DNA from: Myxococcota bacterium
GTDB lineage: Bacteria > Myxococcota_A > UBA9160 > UBA6930
DNA: 64,000 nucleotides
Reading direction: 5' to 3'
Assembly: GCA_028285625.1 (NCBI GenBank)
Contig: JANQOX010000003.1
Location: 62,001-126,000 of the forward strand
In this document: positions 6,741-60,442 of the stretch, in pieces
How the letters are laid out: each line of letters begins with the position of its first letter
Numbering within the stretch: position 1 is the first letter of the stretch
Translations under genes and position numbers: made by a program
Notes under the pieces: model-generated
What the model was told of the DNA's origin: nothing
Database searches by the model: none
The model's input: only the letters and a program-made list of their open reading frames with translations

Positions 6741-7895
6741 TCAGTCGGTGACCGAGCCGAGGGCGAGGTCGGCGAGCCGCGCGAGGCGCTCGAAGTTGTT
6801 CGAGTCTTCGAGGATGCCCGCGCATAGGCAGACGAAGACGAGCTCGCGTTCGGGGTCGACGAAGTACATGGTCGACCCCGCGCCGAGCCCGCCGAAGCTC
6901 GAAGGCGAGGCGGTCGCGCCGAAGGGCATCGGAAAGAACCGCGCACCGCGCAGGAAGAAGCCCAGACCGAGGCAGGCGGGAAACGGCTCCCAGCCCCGTG
7001 CCTCGCACATCCCGTCGAAGATGTGATTCACCTCGTCGCCGGTGTGGTTCTGCAAGGCGAGCTCGAGCAGCGGGCGAGACAAGATGCGGACGCCGTCGAG
7101 TTCGCCGCCCCGACGCAGCGCCTCCCCGAAACGGAAGAGGTCGGCCGCCGTTCCGAGCGCGCCTCCGCCAGGCATCTCGAACGCGTCGTTCTGCATGACG
7201 TTGATGCTCTCGATGGCCGCGGGCGGGATGATGCCCGGACGCTCGTCTCGCCAGCGCGCGGGGACGCGCCGGGCCTGCTGGTCGGAGCGGAGCGAGAGAC
7301 TGGTGGACTTCATCCCCAGTGGGGCGAAGAGGTCCTCGGCCAGGATCGTCCGCACCGGGCGCCGCTTCGGGTCTGCTCGGTGGAGCACTTCGCCGAGAAC
7401 CGCGAATGCGCCGATGGGGCTGTAGCTGACGATCCGTCCGGGCGTCGTGACGAGCGCCTGGTCGGCGACCGCGAGCGCGACCTTCGTGTTGTCGCCGAAG
7501 TCCGCAGGGTTCATGGGCGGGAGGTCGACGGGCATGCCTCCCTGATGGGTGAGGAGGTTGGCGAGGGTCACCCGCTGCTTGCCCTTCACGCCGAACTCGG
7601 GGATCCACTCGCGGACGGGCTGGTGCAGCTGCAGGTGGCCGCGGTCGGCCGCCTGCAACACCGCGGCCGCGGTGAGGGTCTTCGTGATGGAGAAGAGGTG
7701 GTAGACGTCGTCTACCTGTGCCGGCCGGCCCGTATCCCGGTCGGCAAAGCCGACGGCCTCGTGGAAGGCGATCTCGCCGCGGCGCGCCACGAGCACCTCG
7801 GCGCCGTCCGAGCGCCCCGATGCGACGTCCGCCTCGATCGCCCGCGTGATCCGTGAGAGTCGCTCGGCGTCCATGCCGTGTTCGCTTGCACCCAT
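6741..7895 (-). CDS. Serine hydrolase of the beta-lactamase / class C fold
   Basis: 384 residues, no clear signal peptide. The nucleophile motif is YHLFSITKTLTAAAV (S-x-x-K), followed by IVSYSPIGAFAVLGE (Tyr-Ser-x motif) and a late FGGLGAGSTMYFVDPE stretch in the position of the KTG/HTG loop. These are features of the beta-lactamase-related esterases, D-aminopeptidases and EstB-like enzymes. The substrate is unknown; resistance is not implied. A TAGACT hexamer lies at 7921-7926 (minus) with a GGGGAGG ribosome site downstream. Confidence 0.88.
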   Translation of the reverse strand: MGASEHGMDAERLSRITRAIEADVASGRSDGAEVLVARRGEIAFHEAVGFADRDTGRPAQVDDVYHLFSITKTLTAAAVLQAADRGHLQLHQPVREWIPEFGVKGKQRVTLANLLTHQGGMPVDLPPMNPADFGDNTKVALAVADQALVTTPGRIVSYSPIGAFAVLGEVLHRADPKRRPVRTILAEDLFAPLGMKSTSLSLRSDQQARRVPARWRDERPGIIPPAAIESINVMQNDAFEMPGGGALGTAADLFRFGEALRRGGELDGVRILSRPLLELALQNHTGDEVNHIFDGMCEARGWEPFPACLGLGFFLRGARFFPMPFGATASPSSFGGLGAGSTMYFVDPERELVFVCLCAGILEDSNNFERLARLADLALGSVTD

Positions 7896-7920
7896 CGCCG
7901 CGCCTCCCCTGATGAGGTGG

Positions 7921-7926
7921 AGTCTA
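7921..7926 (-). promoter_or_regulatory. Putative -10 box TAGACT for the serine hydrolase gene
   Basis: TAGACT on the minus strand, 25 bases before the ATG at 7895. It leaves a short leader containing a GGGGAGG ribosome site. It fits the GCTAnnCT / TAnnnT pattern seen before many starts in this window. No good -35 box. Confidence 0.45.
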
Positions 7927-8028
7927 GATCAGGGGCAGTGCGGTCGAGGATGTCGGGCCACGACTCGCGCTGCATGACCGCGCCAACCGCGAGTCAGGGC
8001 AAGGGAGAGCTGGGCATTGGGACCTCAC

Positions 8029-9468
8029 CTAGGCCGCGAGCGATCTCCAGAGCAGCATCGCCGCGTACCCCCGCCACGGCCGACATGCCTCGGCGCGGTC
8101 GCGCAGCGCCGCTGCGGAAGCCGCCGGCGCACCCGGCGCGATGGCCTTTCGCAGGCCGAGATCGCCGTCCGGAAACGCATCGGGTTCGCCCAGCCCGCGC
8201 AGCGCTACGTAGTGGGCCGTCCAGGGCCCGACGCCGGGAAGCGCGCAGAGCCCCTCGACGATGGCGTCGAGCTCTCTGCCAGGGCGCAACACGTCCGACC
8301 CGTCCGCCACGACCTGGGCCAGGCCCGAGATGGCCCCGGCCCGTGCTCGCGGCAGGCCGAGCGTCGTGAGATCGGCCCGGGCCAGCCGCTCGGGCAGGGG
8401 GAACAGGTGCGTGAGACCCTCGTCGGGCTCGGACAACGGGTCGCCGAACTTCTCGACCAGCCGCGCCGCCAACGTGGTCGCCCCACGCACCGTGACCTGC
8501 TGGCCCAGGATGGCGCGCACGGCCAGCTCGAACGGGTCCCATGCGCCGGGGACGCGCACGCCCGGATGGCGGTCGAGTTCGCGCGACAGCAGGGCATCGC
8601 CGCGTAGTACCTGGGCGATGGAGGCGGGATCGGCGCCCAGGTCGAAGACCCGGCGCGCGCGGCTGGCGACGTCGGCCAGGATCGCGCCCCCGGCGCCAGA
8701 CACCCGCACTTCGATCTCGTGGTGTCCTTCGAGGGCGCGCACCTCGACCCGCGCTGGCTGGGTCGGGCCTCGCACCGCGCGCCGCCAGACGCCGCCGCGA
8801 ACGCACTCGACACCCGGGATCGCGCGCGAACCCAGGAACGCGAGCAAGCCGGGCAGGTCGAGCGGCGGGCGATAGGCCAGACGCATCCGGATCCCGTCGC
8901 TCGCGACGGCACTGCGGCGGCGGCGGCGTAGCTCGCGCGGCGGCTTTCCGTAGGTCGCGCGCAGACTCTCGTTGAAGCGGCGGATGCTGCCGAAGCCCGC
9001 CGCCAGCGCGACTTCGGTCATGGGCAGGTCGGTCTCGTCCAGCAGCTTCTTGGCGAACAGCAGCCGCCGGGTCTGCGCCACCGCGACGGGCGTGGCCCCG
9101 ACGTGGCGAAGGAACAGCCGCCGCAGGTGCCTTCCCCCGACGCCCACGCGGGCCGCCAGCACCTCCACGCCGCCTTCGTCGAGGGCTCCCTCCCCGATCA
9201 GGCGCAGCGCGCGACCCACCGCGGCCTCGGACCCGCACCAGGCCGGGGTGCCCGGAGCGGCTTCGGGTCGGCAGCGCAGACAGGGCCGATAACCGGCATC
9301 GCGCGCCGCGGCCGCCGACGCGAAGAACCGGCAGTTCTCGCGCAGCGGCGTACGGGCGGGACAGATGGGCCGGCAGAAGACCCCGGTGCTCGCGACCCCG
9401 GTGAAGAAGCGGCCGTCGAAGCGCGCATCGCGAGCGCGCAAGGCGCGGTAGCAGAGGTCAGGCTCCAT
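8029..9468 (-). CDS. Ada-AlkA fusion: AdaA methyl-acceptor/AraC regulator joined to DNA-3-methyladenine glycosylase II
   Basis: 479 residues from the ATG at 9468. Residues ~1-75 are the Ada zinc domain: GVFCRPICPARTP, then NCRFFASAAAARDAGY and PCLRCRPE give four Cys plus an acceptor Cys. Residues ~85-190 are an AraC-type helix-turn-helix (FGSIRRFNESLRATYGKPP). Residues ~195-479 are AlkA: helix-hairpin-helix LCALPGVGPWTAHYVALR and catalytic Asp in FPDGDLGLRKA. It should sense methylphosphotriesters, activate transcription and excise alkylated bases. No separate Ada C-terminal O6-methyltransferase domain is present. Confidence 0.93.
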   Translation of the reverse strand: MEPDLCYRALRARDARFDGRFFTGVASTGVFCRPICPARTPLRENCRFFASAAAARDAGYRPCLRCRPEAAPGTPAWCGSEAAVGRALRLIGEGALDEGGVEVLAARVGVGGRHLRRLFLRHVGATPVAVAQTRRLLFAKKLLDETDLPMTEVALAAGFGSIRRFNESLRATYGKPPRELRRRRRSAVASDGIRMRLAYRPPLDLPGLLAFLGSRAIPGVECVRGGVWRRAVRGPTQPARVEVRALEGHHEIEVRVSGAGGAILADVASRARRVFDLGADPASIAQVLRGDALLSRELDRHPGVRVPGAWDPFELAVRAILGQQVTVRGATTLAARLVEKFGDPLSEPDEGLTHLFPLPERLARADLTTLGLPRARAGAISGLAQVVADGSDVLRPGRELDAIVEGLCALPGVGPWTAHYVALRGLGEPDAFPDGDLGLRKAIAPGAPAASAAALRDRAEACRPWRGYAAMLLWRSLAA

Positions 9469-52153: not shown

Positions 52154-54985
<2,832 letters not shown>

Positions 54986-55139: not shown

Positions 55140-55712
55140 ATGCTCGTCAGGATCGCGCTTTCCATCCTCATGGCCGCCCTCTGCCTGCAGGGCTCCCTGG
55201 CAGCTCGGGCCGGCGACCTGCCGGGCAACCTCGAGGGCTACTACCGGGCGACCGGCGTGACGACCGAGGAGGCCAGTGGCATCAAGCGCGACCTCTCCGG
55301 GACGATGCTCGTCGCCCGCGACGAGTCCGGCGAGTACTCCCTGCGTTTCACCTTCCGGACCCAGCTGGCAACGCCCCAGGGCGAGGTCAAGGCCGACCTG
55401 ATCGGCACCGGGAACGCGCGACCCGAGGGCGACCGCCTGGTCGGGCGCTCGGAAACCCAGGCGATCTGGGCCGCCATCCCGGGGATCGACCCGCGCTTCG
55501 CCTTCATTCCGGGCAAGCTCGGGCCGCGCATCCAGAGCACGTTCGAGATGTGGGCGGGCGACGGGGCGGACTCGTTCCGTAGCGAGGTCCGGACCGTCGC
55601 GGTCCCAGGCTACGAGTACGCGGCGACGAGTTCGCAGATCGAACTGATCCGGATCTCCCAGGATGTCCCCCAGGACGACCGGCTGCCGATCCCCCAGCCA
55701 CACGACGACTAG
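55140..55712 (+). CDS. Secreted hypothetical protein (190 aa)
   Basis: Signal peptide (ALSILMAALCLQGSLAARA) and a beta-rich body: LEGYYRATGVTTEEASG, SLRFTFRTQLATPQGEV, and RTVAVPGYEYAATSSQIELIR. No Cys in the mature part and no family recognised. It may be a small periplasmic lipocalin-like protein, but that is a guess. Strong ribosome site and a TAGACT hexamer upstream. It converges on the kinase gene; the 37-bp repeats lie between. Confidence 0.75.
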   Translation: MLVRIALSILMAALCLQGSLAARAGDLPGNLEGYYRATGVTTEEASGIKRDLSGTMLVARDESGEYSLRFTFRTQLATPQGEVKADLIGTGNARPEGDRLVGRSETQAIWAAIPGIDPRFAFIPGKLGPRIQSTFEMWAGDGADSFRSEVRTVAVPGYEYAATSSQIELIRISQDVPQDDRLPIPQPHDD

Positions 55713-55716
55713 GGAC

Positions 55717-55827
55717 GCGCCTTCGATCCAGGCGGAAGCCGCGAGCCGGCGGAGCGCCTTCGGTCCAGGCGGAAGCCGCGAGCCGGCAGAGCGCCTTCGG
55801 TCTAGGCGGAAGCCGCGAGCCGGCGGA
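55717..55827. repeat. Three 37-bp tandem repeats duplicating the 3' end of the kinase gene
   Basis: Units 55717-55753, 55754-55790 and 55791-55827, nearly identical. Unit 3 encodes the last residues of the kinase (minus strand) and its TAG stop. Units 1 and 2 carry TGG at the same place. The kinase stop therefore sits in the innermost unit and two copies trail it. Confidence 0.92.
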
Positions 55828-58800
55828 GCGCCTCGGTCACCTCGGAGGTCTCGGCGAAGCGATCATCCGGCGACTTCTGCATGAGTCGCAGGATCAGCTC
55901 GGCGACGGCGTCGGGAATGTCCTTGGCCAGTTCGCGCGGATCGGGCGGCGGGGTGTGCCGGTGGTGGTAGGTGACGTCGCCCTCGGTGAAGGGCACGCGC
56001 CCCGTGAGCAGTTCGAACAGCGTGACCCCGAATGCGTACAGGTCGGCACGATGGTCGACGCCCGTGCCCTCGGACTGCTCGGGCGCCATGTAGTACGGCG
56101 TGCCGCCGATCACCGTGGCGGCGCGGCGGACCTCCTCGGTCATCTTGGCGAGACCGAAGTCCATGATCTTCACCACCTTGTCCTTGGTGAAGAACAGGTT
56201 CGACGTCTTGATGTCGCGGTGGATCACCCCGTGTTCGTGGGCAAACTGCAGGCCCGTGGAGATCTGGACGGCCAGGCGCAGGGCGTCCCGGGCGCCGAGC
56301 CGTCCGCGCTTGGCGAGGATCGCGTCGAGGGGCAACCCCTCGAGCATCTCCATGGTGAGGTAGTAGTGACCGCCTGACTGATCCGCGTCGAAGAGGGTCA
56401 CGATGTTCGTGTGGTTGAGGGCCGCTGCGGCACGCGCCTCGCGCAGGAACAGCTGCACCGCGGTCGGGTGGTCTCGCAGGTTCTCGGGCAGGCGCTTGAG
56501 CGCGACCACGCGGCCCAGGCGCGTGTCGCGGGCCTTGTAGACGACGCCCATGCCGCCGCGTCCCAGCTCACCCAGCAGCTCGTAGCGCTCGGGCTCCGCT
56601 TCGGATTCGCCATCGTCGAGCGTGAGCGCCCCGGCCAGCTCGGCGTCGTCGATGTCCGGATCGGGGTCGAAGCTGCCCGGTGCCGCGCGGGTGCCTGTGG
56701 CCCCGAGCCGGCTGCGCAGCGTGTCGATCTCGTCGGCCACGCCCGGGTAGTCGGGCTCGCGCTTCTGGATCGACTCGAAGCAGGTGACCGCTTCGTCCAG
56801 CCGACCGGCATGGGCGAGCAGCCGGCCGAGCTGCTCGTGCAGCTCGAGCGGAGCGGACTCCTCGCCGGCGACCTGCACGGCCTCCTCGGCCTTGTGTACC
56901 GCAAGGTCCCACTCTTCGCGGTCGGTGAAGATCTGCGCCAGCAGCCGGCACGCCTCGAGGTAGTCGGGGTCGCGCAGATCCACCATCTGCAGGTTGCGTA
57001 CCGCACGGTCGACGTCGTCGTCCTGGAAGGCGAGCGTTCCCGCGTCGAAGTAGCAGTCGGTCTTCTCGAGCAGCTCGAGCACCTTGCTGGACATCCCGGC
57101 GCGCTTGTAGGCCTCGATGGCGCTCTCGTAGTCGTACGAGGCCTCGAACGCCTCGGCTTCGGCGAGCGCGCCGCCATCGGCCGCCGGCGCCGGCGGGGGT
57201 TCGGGTCCGGGCGCGTCACCGGCGTCTTCGAGCTCGGGCGAGACAGCGACCTGGGCGGCCTCGGTCATGTGACCCGCGGCTTCGTAGAAGCGGGCAGCCT
57301 TGTCCGACTCACCGCGTGCCTCGTGGAAGCGGGCCCGCATGAGGTTGGCGACCTCGACCTGACCGGCGCGATCCAGCGCCGCGCTGGCCGCCATCATGTC
57401 GCCCTGCAGGTACGGATCGACGGCCTCCGGACAGTCGGTGAAGGCTGCGGTCTCTTCGCTGCCCAGTGTGATCGTGACCAGCGCCGCGCGGTGGTCGGTC
57501 ACCAGGACGTCCACGTCGTGGACCCGGTCCTGCTCGGCGACGAGCACGCCGTGCTGCCCGTTCGTCACATGGAAGACGGTGGACCCCTCGCGGACGTAGC
57601 GGATCGAGTCGGGATTGCCGCGCAGCGCGATCGGCACCTGCGGCATCGCCTGGCCTTCGGCCACGGCGAGACGCACCTCGAGGGGCGCGTCGATGCGCTG
57701 GAAGTCGAAGCGGATCTCGGTGGTCTTGCCCCGCGCCACCTTCACCTTGCGCTCTTCGAGAAAGCTCCCGATCACGTCGCGCGTCTGCTCGTCCTGGAGC
57801 AGGCCGTGCACCATCACGTAGCGTTGGCCCGCGGGAATCCAGCCGAACATCGTCTCCCGACCGACCATCGACTTCGAGAACCGGGCCCAGGCGCGCACCT
57901 TCTTCTGGTACTGCAGCGCCTTGCTCTTGCCCTTGTTCTTCTCCTTCTTGACCTTGCCGGGCTTGCGCGAGATCTGGATGGCGAAGAACCCCTTGGTCTG
58001 CGGACCGTTCTCCCAGTCGAGCTCGACCTTGACCTTGCCCCAGCCGCGGATCACGGGGAGCGAAAGCAGGATCAAGAAGAGCGTGAGCGGCACGGCGGCC
58101 CGCGGATTCAGCACGCGGAACGGCGGCGCGGCGGGCATGGCCAGCTGATTGGCGCGGATGAAGACCCGGTCGGCTTCGCGTCCACCCACCATGCGCACCT
58201 TGAGCACGTAGCGCTCGATGAGTGGGTTGTCCTTCTCGCCCACGCGCTCGAGCTGGGCCACGAAGCTCGCGTCCACGCCGAGCACGTCGTTCACCAGGGA
58301 GATGTCTTCGCGAGCGGTCCCGAACGCGAACAGCCGGTTCGCGGCGCCGAGGGCGACCTCGGGCAGCGCCTCGGGCGGCGGCACCACCTCGAATCGTTCG
58401 ATCAGGCCCTGGAGCAGCGCCGAGTCGATCGCCTGAAGATCGGGCTGGGTGGGGGCGAACCACTCGCGCGCCAGCAGCTCCCAGCCGCCGGTGGTGGCGA
58501 CGCCGAGGTAGTGAACCTTGGCGACGGGCTTGCGCGTCTCGGGACTGCGCGGCGGAAAGCTCGCGAACAGCCGCGCGAAGTCCTTGGCGTCGCCGCCGCG
58601 CACCTCTTCCTCGCCGATGGCCGCCGTCTTGGCGCCACCGGACGTCGGTGCCACCGACTGGCCCTGTAGGCTCGACACCTGGGTGCGGGCGCGCTCGGCG
58701 GCCGCGGTGTCGCCCTGGGCCTCGTAGACCTTGGCCAGCCCTTCGTAGATGGGCGGGTCGTGAGGCTCGATGGAACTCGCCTCTTCGAGGGTGATGCGCG

Positions 58801-60442
58801 CTTCGTCGAGCCGGCCTTCGTCCTGCTGGATCCGGGCGGCTTCCACCAGCAGCTCGGCCCGCTCGTGGTCGGGGAGTTCGGCGTTGCCGGTGGTGAGCGC
58901 CAGCAGGGCCGCGTCGGGGTTGCCCGTGGACTCGTACGCAAGTGCGAGCATCTGCTGCTGCTGGGCGATCTTGTCGCGCGCGACCTTGGCCTGGGAGATC
59001 AGGTCCACAGCCTCCTGGGGCCGACCGGTCTGCTGCATCACGCCGCCCATGCCGAGCATGGCGTCGCCGTGTTCGCCATCGACCTCGAGCGCGCTCCCGA
59101 AGGCCTCCTCGGCCCCTTCGAGATCGCCCATGCGCGAGCGGTTCCGGCCGAGACCGGCCAGCGTGTCGGGGTCCATCGGGTCGAGCGCCGCGCCTTCTTC
59201 GTAGGCGAGCAGGGCGTTCTCGTACATCCCCATGCGCTCGTTCACTTTGGCGACGCTCTGGGTGGCCCGCGCCATCATGCCCGCAGCGCCTCCGGCCATC
59301 ACGTCCTCTTCGCCCGCCGACCGGAAGTTGCGAACCGCCTCTTCGGACTCGAGCCGCTCCGCCCGCAGGTCACCGGCCTGCATCAGGTGCTGGACCTGGA
59401 CCTCGGGTGCATCGCCTTCGAGTGCGCCGAGCGCCTCGTAGATCTCGGGGTCGCGGGGGTCGAGGCGCTTCGCATGCTGCAGGGACTCGCGCGCTTCTTC
59501 GACGCGCCCGATCTCCAAGGCCGTCGACGCGCGTGCCACGTGGGCCTCGCGTCGCTCGGGGTCGATCTCGACCACCTGCGTGTACAGGCGGTGGGCCACC
59601 TCGGGCTCGCCGCGTACGAGGGCCGAGTCGCCTCCGGCCATCAGCATCTCGGGGTCGCGGCCCTCGCGCATGGCCTTGCGCACGTGGAGCCACGCCTTGT
59701 CGGGGGCGCCACTCGCACTGGCCAGCCGCGAGCGCTCGGCCAGACTGGCGTCGCTCTTCTGGGCCGCCTGTTGGATCTCGTGGCGCAGTGCCATTGCCGT
59801 GGGGGTGTCGGACGAGCCGAGTTCGCGCCACGCTGCCGTGAGTCGCCCGCCTCCCAGCGCCGCGACGGCGCGCTCATAGCGGCCCAGCTCCGAGAGCCGC
59901 GGCTCTTGCGCGCCCACGATCGGCCCCGGGGCCACGCCCAGGGTGGTGAGCAGGCTGGCGAGCGCCTCTTCGAGCAGACTGCCCAGATCGGCCAGCCGGC
60001 CCTCCACGCGCGTGCCGGCCACCACGCCGCCGTCGTCGGTCGCGTGGATGCGCAGGCGCAGGTCGATCTGGCCCGCGTCGTAGCGGATCTCGCTGAACAG
60101 CAGGGTCGTCGCGCCAGCGGAGACGCCCAGCTCGGTGATCTGCTCGCCGCGCAGGACCGCGTCGCCGATCTCGGGGCGCGCGCGCAGATTCGCGACGGCG
60201 TCACGCGCGGTGCGGCGGCCGACGACCTGGAAACCCGCAGCGGTCACCCGCTCGCGGAGCCACTCGTCGACGCCGCCGTCGACGCTCGCGAGCACGTCTG
60301 CAGCCCGAGTGGGCACCACCAGCGTGTCGCCAGCCGGGAGCACGCCCGGCTGGGCGCCCCACGCCGGTGCCACGAGGCAGACGAGAACGAGCCACAAGAT
60401 TGCCGGGACGACGGAGCGCGGGATCCTCACGCCGGGGATCAT
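55802..60442 (-). CDS. Giant TPR receptor kinase: exported sensor, membrane span, cytoplasmic Hanks-type Ser/Thr kinase at the C-terminus
   Basis: 1546 residues. Signal peptide or first span (AILWLVLVCLVAPAWGA). Residues ~35-165 resemble a TolB/FlgO N-terminal-like domain. TPR repeats follow at ~195-600 (VAHRLYTQVVEIDPERREA, ALLAYEEGAALDPMDPD), then a second alpha/beta domain to ~775. The membrane span is ~783-803 (VPLTLFLILLSLPVI), followed by a Lys-rich stretch (positive inside). A beta-rich segment, a second TPR block (~1040-1230) and the kinase at ~1285-1540 complete it: LGRGGMGVVYKA, VALKRL, HRDIKTSNLFF, DFGLA, YMAPEQSEG. All catalytic residues are intact. Known PknB-type receptors have the kinase first; here it is last. 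Confidence 0.95.
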   Translation of the reverse strand: MIPGVRIPRSVVPAILWLVLVCLVAPAWGAQPGVLPAGDTLVVPTRAADVLASVDGGVDEWLRERVTAAGFQVVGRRTARDAVANLRARPEIGDAVLRGEQITELGVSAGATTLLFSEIRYDAGQIDLRLRIHATDDGGVVAGTRVEGRLADLGSLLEEALASLLTTLGVAPGPIVGAQEPRLSELGRYERAVAALGGGRLTAAWRELGSSDTPTAMALRHEIQQAAQKSDASLAERSRLASASGAPDKAWLHVRKAMREGRDPEMLMAGGDSALVRGEPEVAHRLYTQVVEIDPERREAHVARASTALEIGRVEEARESLQHAKRLDPRDPEIYEALGALEGDAPEVQVQHLMQAGDLRAERLESEEAVRNFRSAGEEDVMAGGAAGMMARATQSVAKVNERMGMYENALLAYEEGAALDPMDPDTLAGLGRNRSRMGDLEGAEEAFGSALEVDGEHGDAMLGMGGVMQQTGRPQEAVDLISQAKVARDKIAQQQQMLALAYESTGNPDAALLALTTGNAELPDHERAELLVEAARIQQDEGRLDEARITLEEASSIEPHDPPIYEGLAKVYEAQGDTAAAERARTQVSSLQGQSVAPTSGGAKTAAIGEEEVRGGDAKDFARLFASFPPRSPETRKPVAKVHYLGVATTGGWELLAREWFAPTQPDLQAIDSALLQGLIERFEVVPPPEALPEVALGAANRLFAFGTAREDISLVNDVLGVDASFVAQLERVGEKDNPLIERYVLKVRMVGGREADRVFIRANQLAMPAAPPFRVLNPRAAVPLTLFLILLSLPVIRGWGKVKVELDWENGPQTKGFFAIQISRKPGKVKKEKNKGKSKALQYQKKVRAWARFSKSMVGRETMFGWIPAGQRYVMVHGLLQDEQTRDVIGSFLEERKVKVARGKTTEIRFDFQRIDAPLEVRLAVAEGQAMPQVPIALRGNPDSIRYVREGSTVFHVTNGQHGVLVAEQDRVHDVDVLVTDHRAALVTITLGSEETAAFTDCPEAVDPYLQGDMMAASAALDRAGQVEVANLMRARFHEARGESDKAARFYEAAGHMTEAAQVAVSPELEDAGDAPGPEPPPAPAADGGALAEAEAFEASYDYESAIEAYKRAGMSSKVLELLEKTDCYFDAGTLAFQDDDVDRAVRNLQMVDLRDPDYLEACRLLAQIFTDREEWDLAVHKAEEAVQVAGEESAPLELHEQLGRLLAHAGRLDEAVTCFESIQKREPDYPGVADEIDTLRSRLGATGTRAAPGSFDPDPDIDDAELAGALTLDDGESEAEPERYELLGELGRGGMGVVYKARDTRLGRVVALKRLPENLRDHPTAVQLFLREARAAAALNHTNIVTLFDADQSGGHYYLTMEMLEGLPLDAILAKRGRLGARDALRLAVQISTGLQFAHEHGVIHRDIKTSNLFFTKDKVVKIMDFGLAKMTEEVRRAATVIGGTPYYMAPEQSEGTGVDHRADLYAFGVTLFELLTGRVPFTEGDVTYHHRHTPPPDPRELAKDIPDAVAELILRLMQKSPDDRFAETSEVTEALRRLAASA

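Follow-up and report, generated by a model that had tools for sequence, protein, structure and literature searches.

A predicted single-pass receptor kinase with an exported TPR sensor and a C-terminal kinase domain in Myxococcota-like bacteria

Introduction

Does one gene of a Myxococcota bacterium join a large exported sensor to a cytosolic Ser/Thr kinase in a single chain, and what might such a receptor sense and phosphorylate? The question is raised by a locus in a 64,000-nucleotide stretch of contig JANQOX010000003.1, here called the window. To our knowledge, most ligands of bacterial Ser/Thr receptor kinases are not known. An earlier note on this DNA had read the gene product as a series of signal peptide, exported domain, TPRs, second exported domain, membrane span, Lys-rich stretch, beta-rich segment, further TPRs and kinase, and this overall series is upheld by Pfam, hydropathy and AlphaFold2.

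Gene and overall architecture

The receptor kinase gene is a single open reading frame on the minus strand that runs from an ATG at 60442 to a stop at 55802 and encodes 1,546 amino acids. GC by codon position (0.75/0.46/0.90) displays a protein-coding pattern across the frame. Nineteen sequences were aligned, including the window protein; the 18 others are 30-59% identical to it over residues 600-1240, and the architecture is therefore not a product of chance. The TPRs and the kinase were assigned with Pfam, the remaining domain borders with AlphaFold2, hydropathy and charge. AlphaFold2 models were computed for residues 28-785 (mean pLDDT 77.5) and 612-1010 (pLDDT 74.5). As the input was five sequences and the pTM is 0.37-0.46 (pLDDT 74-78), the packing of domains in these models is unreliable. 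The modelling and profile matches confirm 55802-60442 (minus strand) as one intact, very large predicted membrane receptor, with an outward sensor half and an inward kinase half.

Membrane topology

Only two strong hydrophobic segments are present, at residues 11-29 (hydropathy 2.27) and from residue 782 (1.95); maxima elsewhere are 1.51 between the two segments and 1.05 after the second. The first belongs to a predicted signal peptide, residues 1-29 (60356..60442, minus strand). Of the 16 aligned sequences with a covered N-terminus, 15 have a hydrophobic segment there that reaches 1.6 or above, the exception being L014 with 1.28. The second corresponds to a transmembrane helix at residues ~780-800 (58043..58105, minus strand), which is also indicated by flanking charge and by an AlphaFold2 helix. 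Residues 803-862 contain 18 K/R versus 4 D/E, and K/R exceed D/E after the second hydrophobic segment in all 19 aligned sequences. Signal peptide and topology calls are from hydropathy and charge.

The two hydrophobic segments, the K/R-rich side that follows the second one and the ATP-dependent kinase at the C-terminus together place the first TPR array outside. Thus the predicted topology supports a single-pass, receptor-type protein with an exported TPR sensor and a cytosolic second TPR array. One span near residues 783-803 had been proposed, as had a signal peptide with an exported N-terminal half, and both proposals agree with these data, the latter as a prediction from the hydropathy at 11-29 and the positive-inside charge.

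The exported half

The first exported domain, D1, is an alpha/beta domain at residues ~33-173 (59924..60346, minus strand), with the predicted topology b-a-a-a-a-b-b-b-a in the model of 28-785. It is followed by a periplasmic TPR array of about 11 repeats at ~183-593 (58664..59896, minus strand), in which the same model displays 23 TPR-type helices. Pfam TPR matches lie at ~250-600 and, in the inner half, at ~1130-1235, and the Pfam TPR families of the exported array are present in 16 of 16 aligned sequences. The second alpha/beta domain, D2, at ~620-778 (58109..58585, minus strand), has a predicted topology like that of D1, b-a-(b)-a-a-b-b-b. Three or four helices come after the first strand in the two domains; D1 closes with an extra helix and D2 continues into the membrane helix. 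Structure prediction of the sensor half had been suggested earlier as a check, and the model of 28-785 bears out two domains of like topology flanking a scaffold of TPR helices.

A strand, then helices, then three strands is the order of the FlgO, TolB_N and CsgG domains. D1 and D2 share this predicted secondary-structure order and appear here as receptor ectodomains, but D1 has no significant sequence match to domains of this type. Four sub-threshold matches were obtained for D1 against PDB profiles, and two of these are FlgO-domain chains, with E ~0.7, aligned over the corresponding stretch. There is no Pfam FlgO or TolB match to the window protein or the aligned sequences, and the Pfam FlgO model, run on 21 genomes, gave a single borderline match, on another contig of G011. 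Of the TolB/FlgO-like label given in the earlier note, the topology stands and the sequence match does not. Foldseek results were uninformative for both domains, the list for the whole 28-785 model being filled by TPR proteins and that for the 612-1010 model mostly by pilin/adhesin-type beta proteins. Thus D1 and D2 may be FlgO-like, a suggestion that comes weakly, and by predicted topology only.

D2 had also been proposed to repeat the fold of D1. The predicted topologies agree with this, but the profile-profile comparison of D1 and D2 by hhalign was not significant (probability <1%), and the two were rejected as sequence-level repeats.

The inner half

The membrane helix is followed by a Lys-rich stretch and a first beta domain at residues ~801-915 (57698..58042, minus strand), defined by AlphaFold2 strands and by Foldseek matches of the 612-1010 model to pilin/adhesin-type beta folds. 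A second beta domain, ~916-1005 (57428..57697, minus strand), was delimited by AlphaFold2 and by a profile of its own that matches orthologues and a paralogue, B. Pfam TPR and SNAP models match the cytosolic TPR array, ~1006-1245 (56708..57427, minus strand), in most members of the 19-sequence alignment. This array is common to paralogues B and C; its borders follow the blocks chosen for domain profiles. Charge, AlphaFold2 and Pfam are thus in accord with the Lys-rich stretch, beta-rich segment and second TPR array described earlier.

A Hanks-type Ser/Thr kinase domain occupies residues 1285-1540 (55823..56590, minus strand), with a Pfam Pkinase match at 1287-1530 (E 2.4e-51). The glycine loop, Lys, Glu, HRD, DFG and APE motifs are all present, and the kinase is intact, as had been stated. 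Its catalytic residues are conserved in the alignment except in L017, which diverges from the APE motif onward.

Phylogenetic distribution and paralogues

A profile of the D2-to-beta region was searched against 379 genomes of the phylum, and 68 genomes have a match. Among the matches listed, those containing D2 come from 29 genomes in at least nine families of one class (f1, f2, f4, f6, f7, f8, f9, f11 and f12, in a coding of families as f1-f28). All 29 of the D2-containing matches listed lie in frames of 1,020-1,870 amino acids. The proposal of a single chain would be contradicted by homologues in which residues 1-780 form a gene of their own; a frame of ~800 amino acids was sought among these 29 and none was found, and a separate-gene origin of residues 1-780 was rejected. 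The same domain order appears wherever profiles were run, with TPRs before the D2-to-beta region and the kinase after it. The D1 profile falls below threshold in two f12 sequences, L123 and L124, and several orthologues are incomplete at MAG contig ends.

A search of genome contigs with a five-row alignment yielded four loci, in one Myxococcota bacterium MAG and three Deltaproteobacteria MAGs, and the checked stretches of these match four loci from the genome search. Diverged relatives with a C-terminal kinase are present elsewhere in the phylum (L121, L122). In L122 (414-9135) the relative is directly upstream, on the same strand, of genes reading as glmU and glmS. In G002 (L057, around 7580-8280) the gene is split into frames of 1,280 and 536 amino acids, apparently by one frameshift that falls within the cytosolic TPR array and away from residue 780. 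Judged from these sequences, an uncultured group of Myxococcota-like bacteria has kept this layout.

The mean majority-residue frequency per block is 22-39% in D1 and mostly 60-92% in the kinase. The pattern is that of a receptor, with a rapidly evolving sensor and a slowly evolving kinase. Two paralogues in the same genome show 45% identity over residues 790-1541 (B, L002/L104) and 42% over 1013-1541 (C, L003/L103). Paralogue B and its orthologues keep the span, both beta domains, the inner TPRs and the C-terminal kinase, but the exported part of B is short, some orthologues having a short TPR match there. Paralogue C and its orthologues have the inner TPRs and kinase only, without D1, exported TPRs, D2 or beta domains. 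The inner module is common to the window kinase (A) and B, and its TPR-kinase part also to C, under different outer halves. A variable sensor half thus stands over a constant inner half, with B and C as two natural reductions in the same genome, and domain roles can therefore be tested by swaps.

Proposed mechanism

Computation gives the order of the domains and its retention in a single polypeptide, the predicted membrane topology, the intact kinase motifs and an inner module shared with B, and in its TPR-kinase part with C. With these as a basis, it is highly probable that the protein is a single-pass inner-membrane receptor Ser/Thr kinase with an exported D1-TPR-D2 sensor. The exported half, two FlgO/TolB_N-like domains around a TPR scaffold, would bind a periplasmic protein or ligand, and binding may shift the position or oligomeric state of the receptor chain. 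Through the single helix and the beta domains next to the membrane, the change would reach the inner TPR array, which might set kinase activity and recruit or choose substrates. Upon activation, the RD-type C-terminal kinase would autophosphorylate in trans and then phosphorylate cytosolic targets. We infer every step, from ligand binding and oligomerisation to activation, TPR-mediated substrate choice and all targets.

Possible signals and targets

FlgO- and LpoB-type domains bind, or are thought to bind, outer-membrane or cell-wall machinery. This raises the question of whether D1 and D2 bind such machinery, with the kinase reporting its state. The FlgO/TolB_N-type predicted topology of both domains, the weak FlgO profile match and the long periplasmic TPR scaffold are consistent with such a sensor of envelope assembly, as is the position of the diverged relative L122 next to glmU/glmS-like cell-wall precursor genes. 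However, the latter is a single locus, envelope genes do not recur as neighbours from family to family, and by sequence the FlgO-like assignment does not reach significance. We regard this as a tentative possibility, on balance doubtful. The earlier claim that the kinase reads envelope assemblies thus finds no backing in the neighbours that recur across families, of which sucA is the most frequent.

The sucA gene, for 2-oxoglutarate dehydrogenase E1, is a separate gene of the window at 52154..54985 (minus strand). Eleven genomes, from the four families f1, f2, f6 and f8 (G000, G001, G002, G006, G010, G014, G025, G031, G033, G036 and G043), have sucA directly downstream of the kinase and on its strand. 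Eight of them have an estimated gap of 56-276 nt; in the other three, including the window, it is ~780-880 nt. In the window a 190-amino-acid, exported-looking gene with coding GC is found between the two on the opposite strand (55140-55712, plus strand); no similar gene turned up at those loci of relatives that were used for comparison. These neighbours were surveyed with a simple gene caller based on GC by codon position and by best-match comparison rather than from curated annotation. No neighbour is conserved in every family of this survey, and sucA, a cytosolic metabolic gene, recurs most often. Mapped on an inner-half tree, adjacency to sucA requires four changes, of which well-supported branches force two or more; as the backbone is unresolved, this tree does not decide the number of origins of the adjacency.

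Perhaps the receptor acts on 2-oxoglutarate dehydrogenase, with a nutrient or envelope signal from the periplasm setting the phosphorylation of E1 or of its regulator. This would add a target to the receptor mechanism proposed above and is compatible with it. In addition to the adjacency, there is the precedent of the TPR kinase PknG, which controls the same enzyme through the FHA protein OdhI/GarA (PMC8546545). By analogy, the window protein might do in one chain what the GlnH-GlnX-PknG-OdhI-OdhA route does in actinobacteria, where periplasmic amino-acid sensing via GlnH and GlnX is proposed (PMC8546545, PMC6069109, PMC9769921). However, cupin and alpha/beta hydrolase neighbours are also kept, and plain synteny could therefore explain the adjacency of sucA. 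No adjacency was seen in f4, f7, f9, f11 and f12, nor in the f1 genomes G011 and G012, and in the window ~800 nt and the opposite-strand gene intervene. Nine FHA matches are found in the window's own genome, none of them on the window's contig, and an OdhI-like FHA partner beside the kinase was accordingly rejected. Two small FHA proteins among the nine, L072 and L073, are without an OdhI-like N-terminal TT motif as read. Elsewhere, a kinase gene and four FHA matches occur within about 13 kb (G000 C22:294000-307500, the L106 region). Given the other synteny, the families without adjacency and the lack of the motif in L072 and L073, the link to sucA is circumstantial; a 2-oxoglutarate dehydrogenase output is improbable, and a counterpart of the PknG route equally so. 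If the link is true, TPR kinases would be connected with the 2-oxoglutarate branch point in two separate cases.

It is very improbable that the protein is mainly a scaffold whose two long TPR arrays assemble complexes to either side of the membrane, with kinase activity secondary, as conservation is highest in the kinase and its catalytic residues are retained.

Comparison with known kinases

The receptor kinase proposed here was described in the earlier note as having a reversed domain order. Compared with PknB, PknG and the TPR kinases of planctomycetes this is correct, but the protein is not alone in it, for about six of the 13 kinases in its own genome have a C-terminal catalytic domain. 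These are A, B, C, L105, L107 and L108, whose frames look coding throughout, L105 being the least clear. In L107 (G000 C21) and L108 (G000 C18) the kinase comes at the end, after several predicted membrane spans. Since C-terminal kinases are common in the same genome, order alone is not the novelty; from these sequences, reversed order is a trait of the lineage's kinases and not specific to the window gene.

PknB and the PASTA kinases have an N-terminal kinase and PASTA repeats outside at the C-terminus. They are likewise single-pass receptor Ser/Thr kinases, but their order is opposite to that of the window protein, with its kinase at 1285-1540 of 1546. No PASTA repeats are present among the 25 Pfam matches listed for it. 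The NCBIfam PASTA-kinase model scores 285.5 bits against a cut-off of 450, with the kinase part alone matched, and the combination of N-terminal kinase and C-terminal PASTA is absent from the window protein.

Actinobacterial PknG is likewise a Hanks kinase with a TPR array, through which the detected signal is coupled to the phosphorylation of substrates (PMC8546545). PknG has no membrane span. Its TPRs come after the kinase, and the periplasmic sensing proposed for its pathway lies with separate proteins (PMC8546545), whereas in the window protein TPRs precede the kinase and a span is predicted. The link of PknG to 2-oxoglutarate dehydrogenase has been shown; that of the window kinase is only suggested.

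Planctomycetota TPR kinases mostly have periplasmic TPRs, a cytosolic kinase and a single span (PMC11032199). As in the window protein, kinase and TPRs are joined, but many of the Planctomycetota and Sorangium TPR Ser/Thr kinases have the TPRs C-terminal, after the kinase (PMC11032199), an arrangement not found here. No bacterial kinase of this exact order was found among the results listed by searches of open-licence papers.

We consider it quite improbable that the protein is a one-chain receptor kinase tying a periplasmic signal directly to 2-oxoglutarate dehydrogenase, separate in origin from GlnH-GlnX-PknG-OdhI, its paired FlgO-like/TPR ectodomain making it a new bacterial receptor type. 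In animal and plant receptor kinases the sensor comes first, outside, and the kinase last, inside. The layout of the window protein is equal to theirs, and is found here in Myxococcota-like bacteria.
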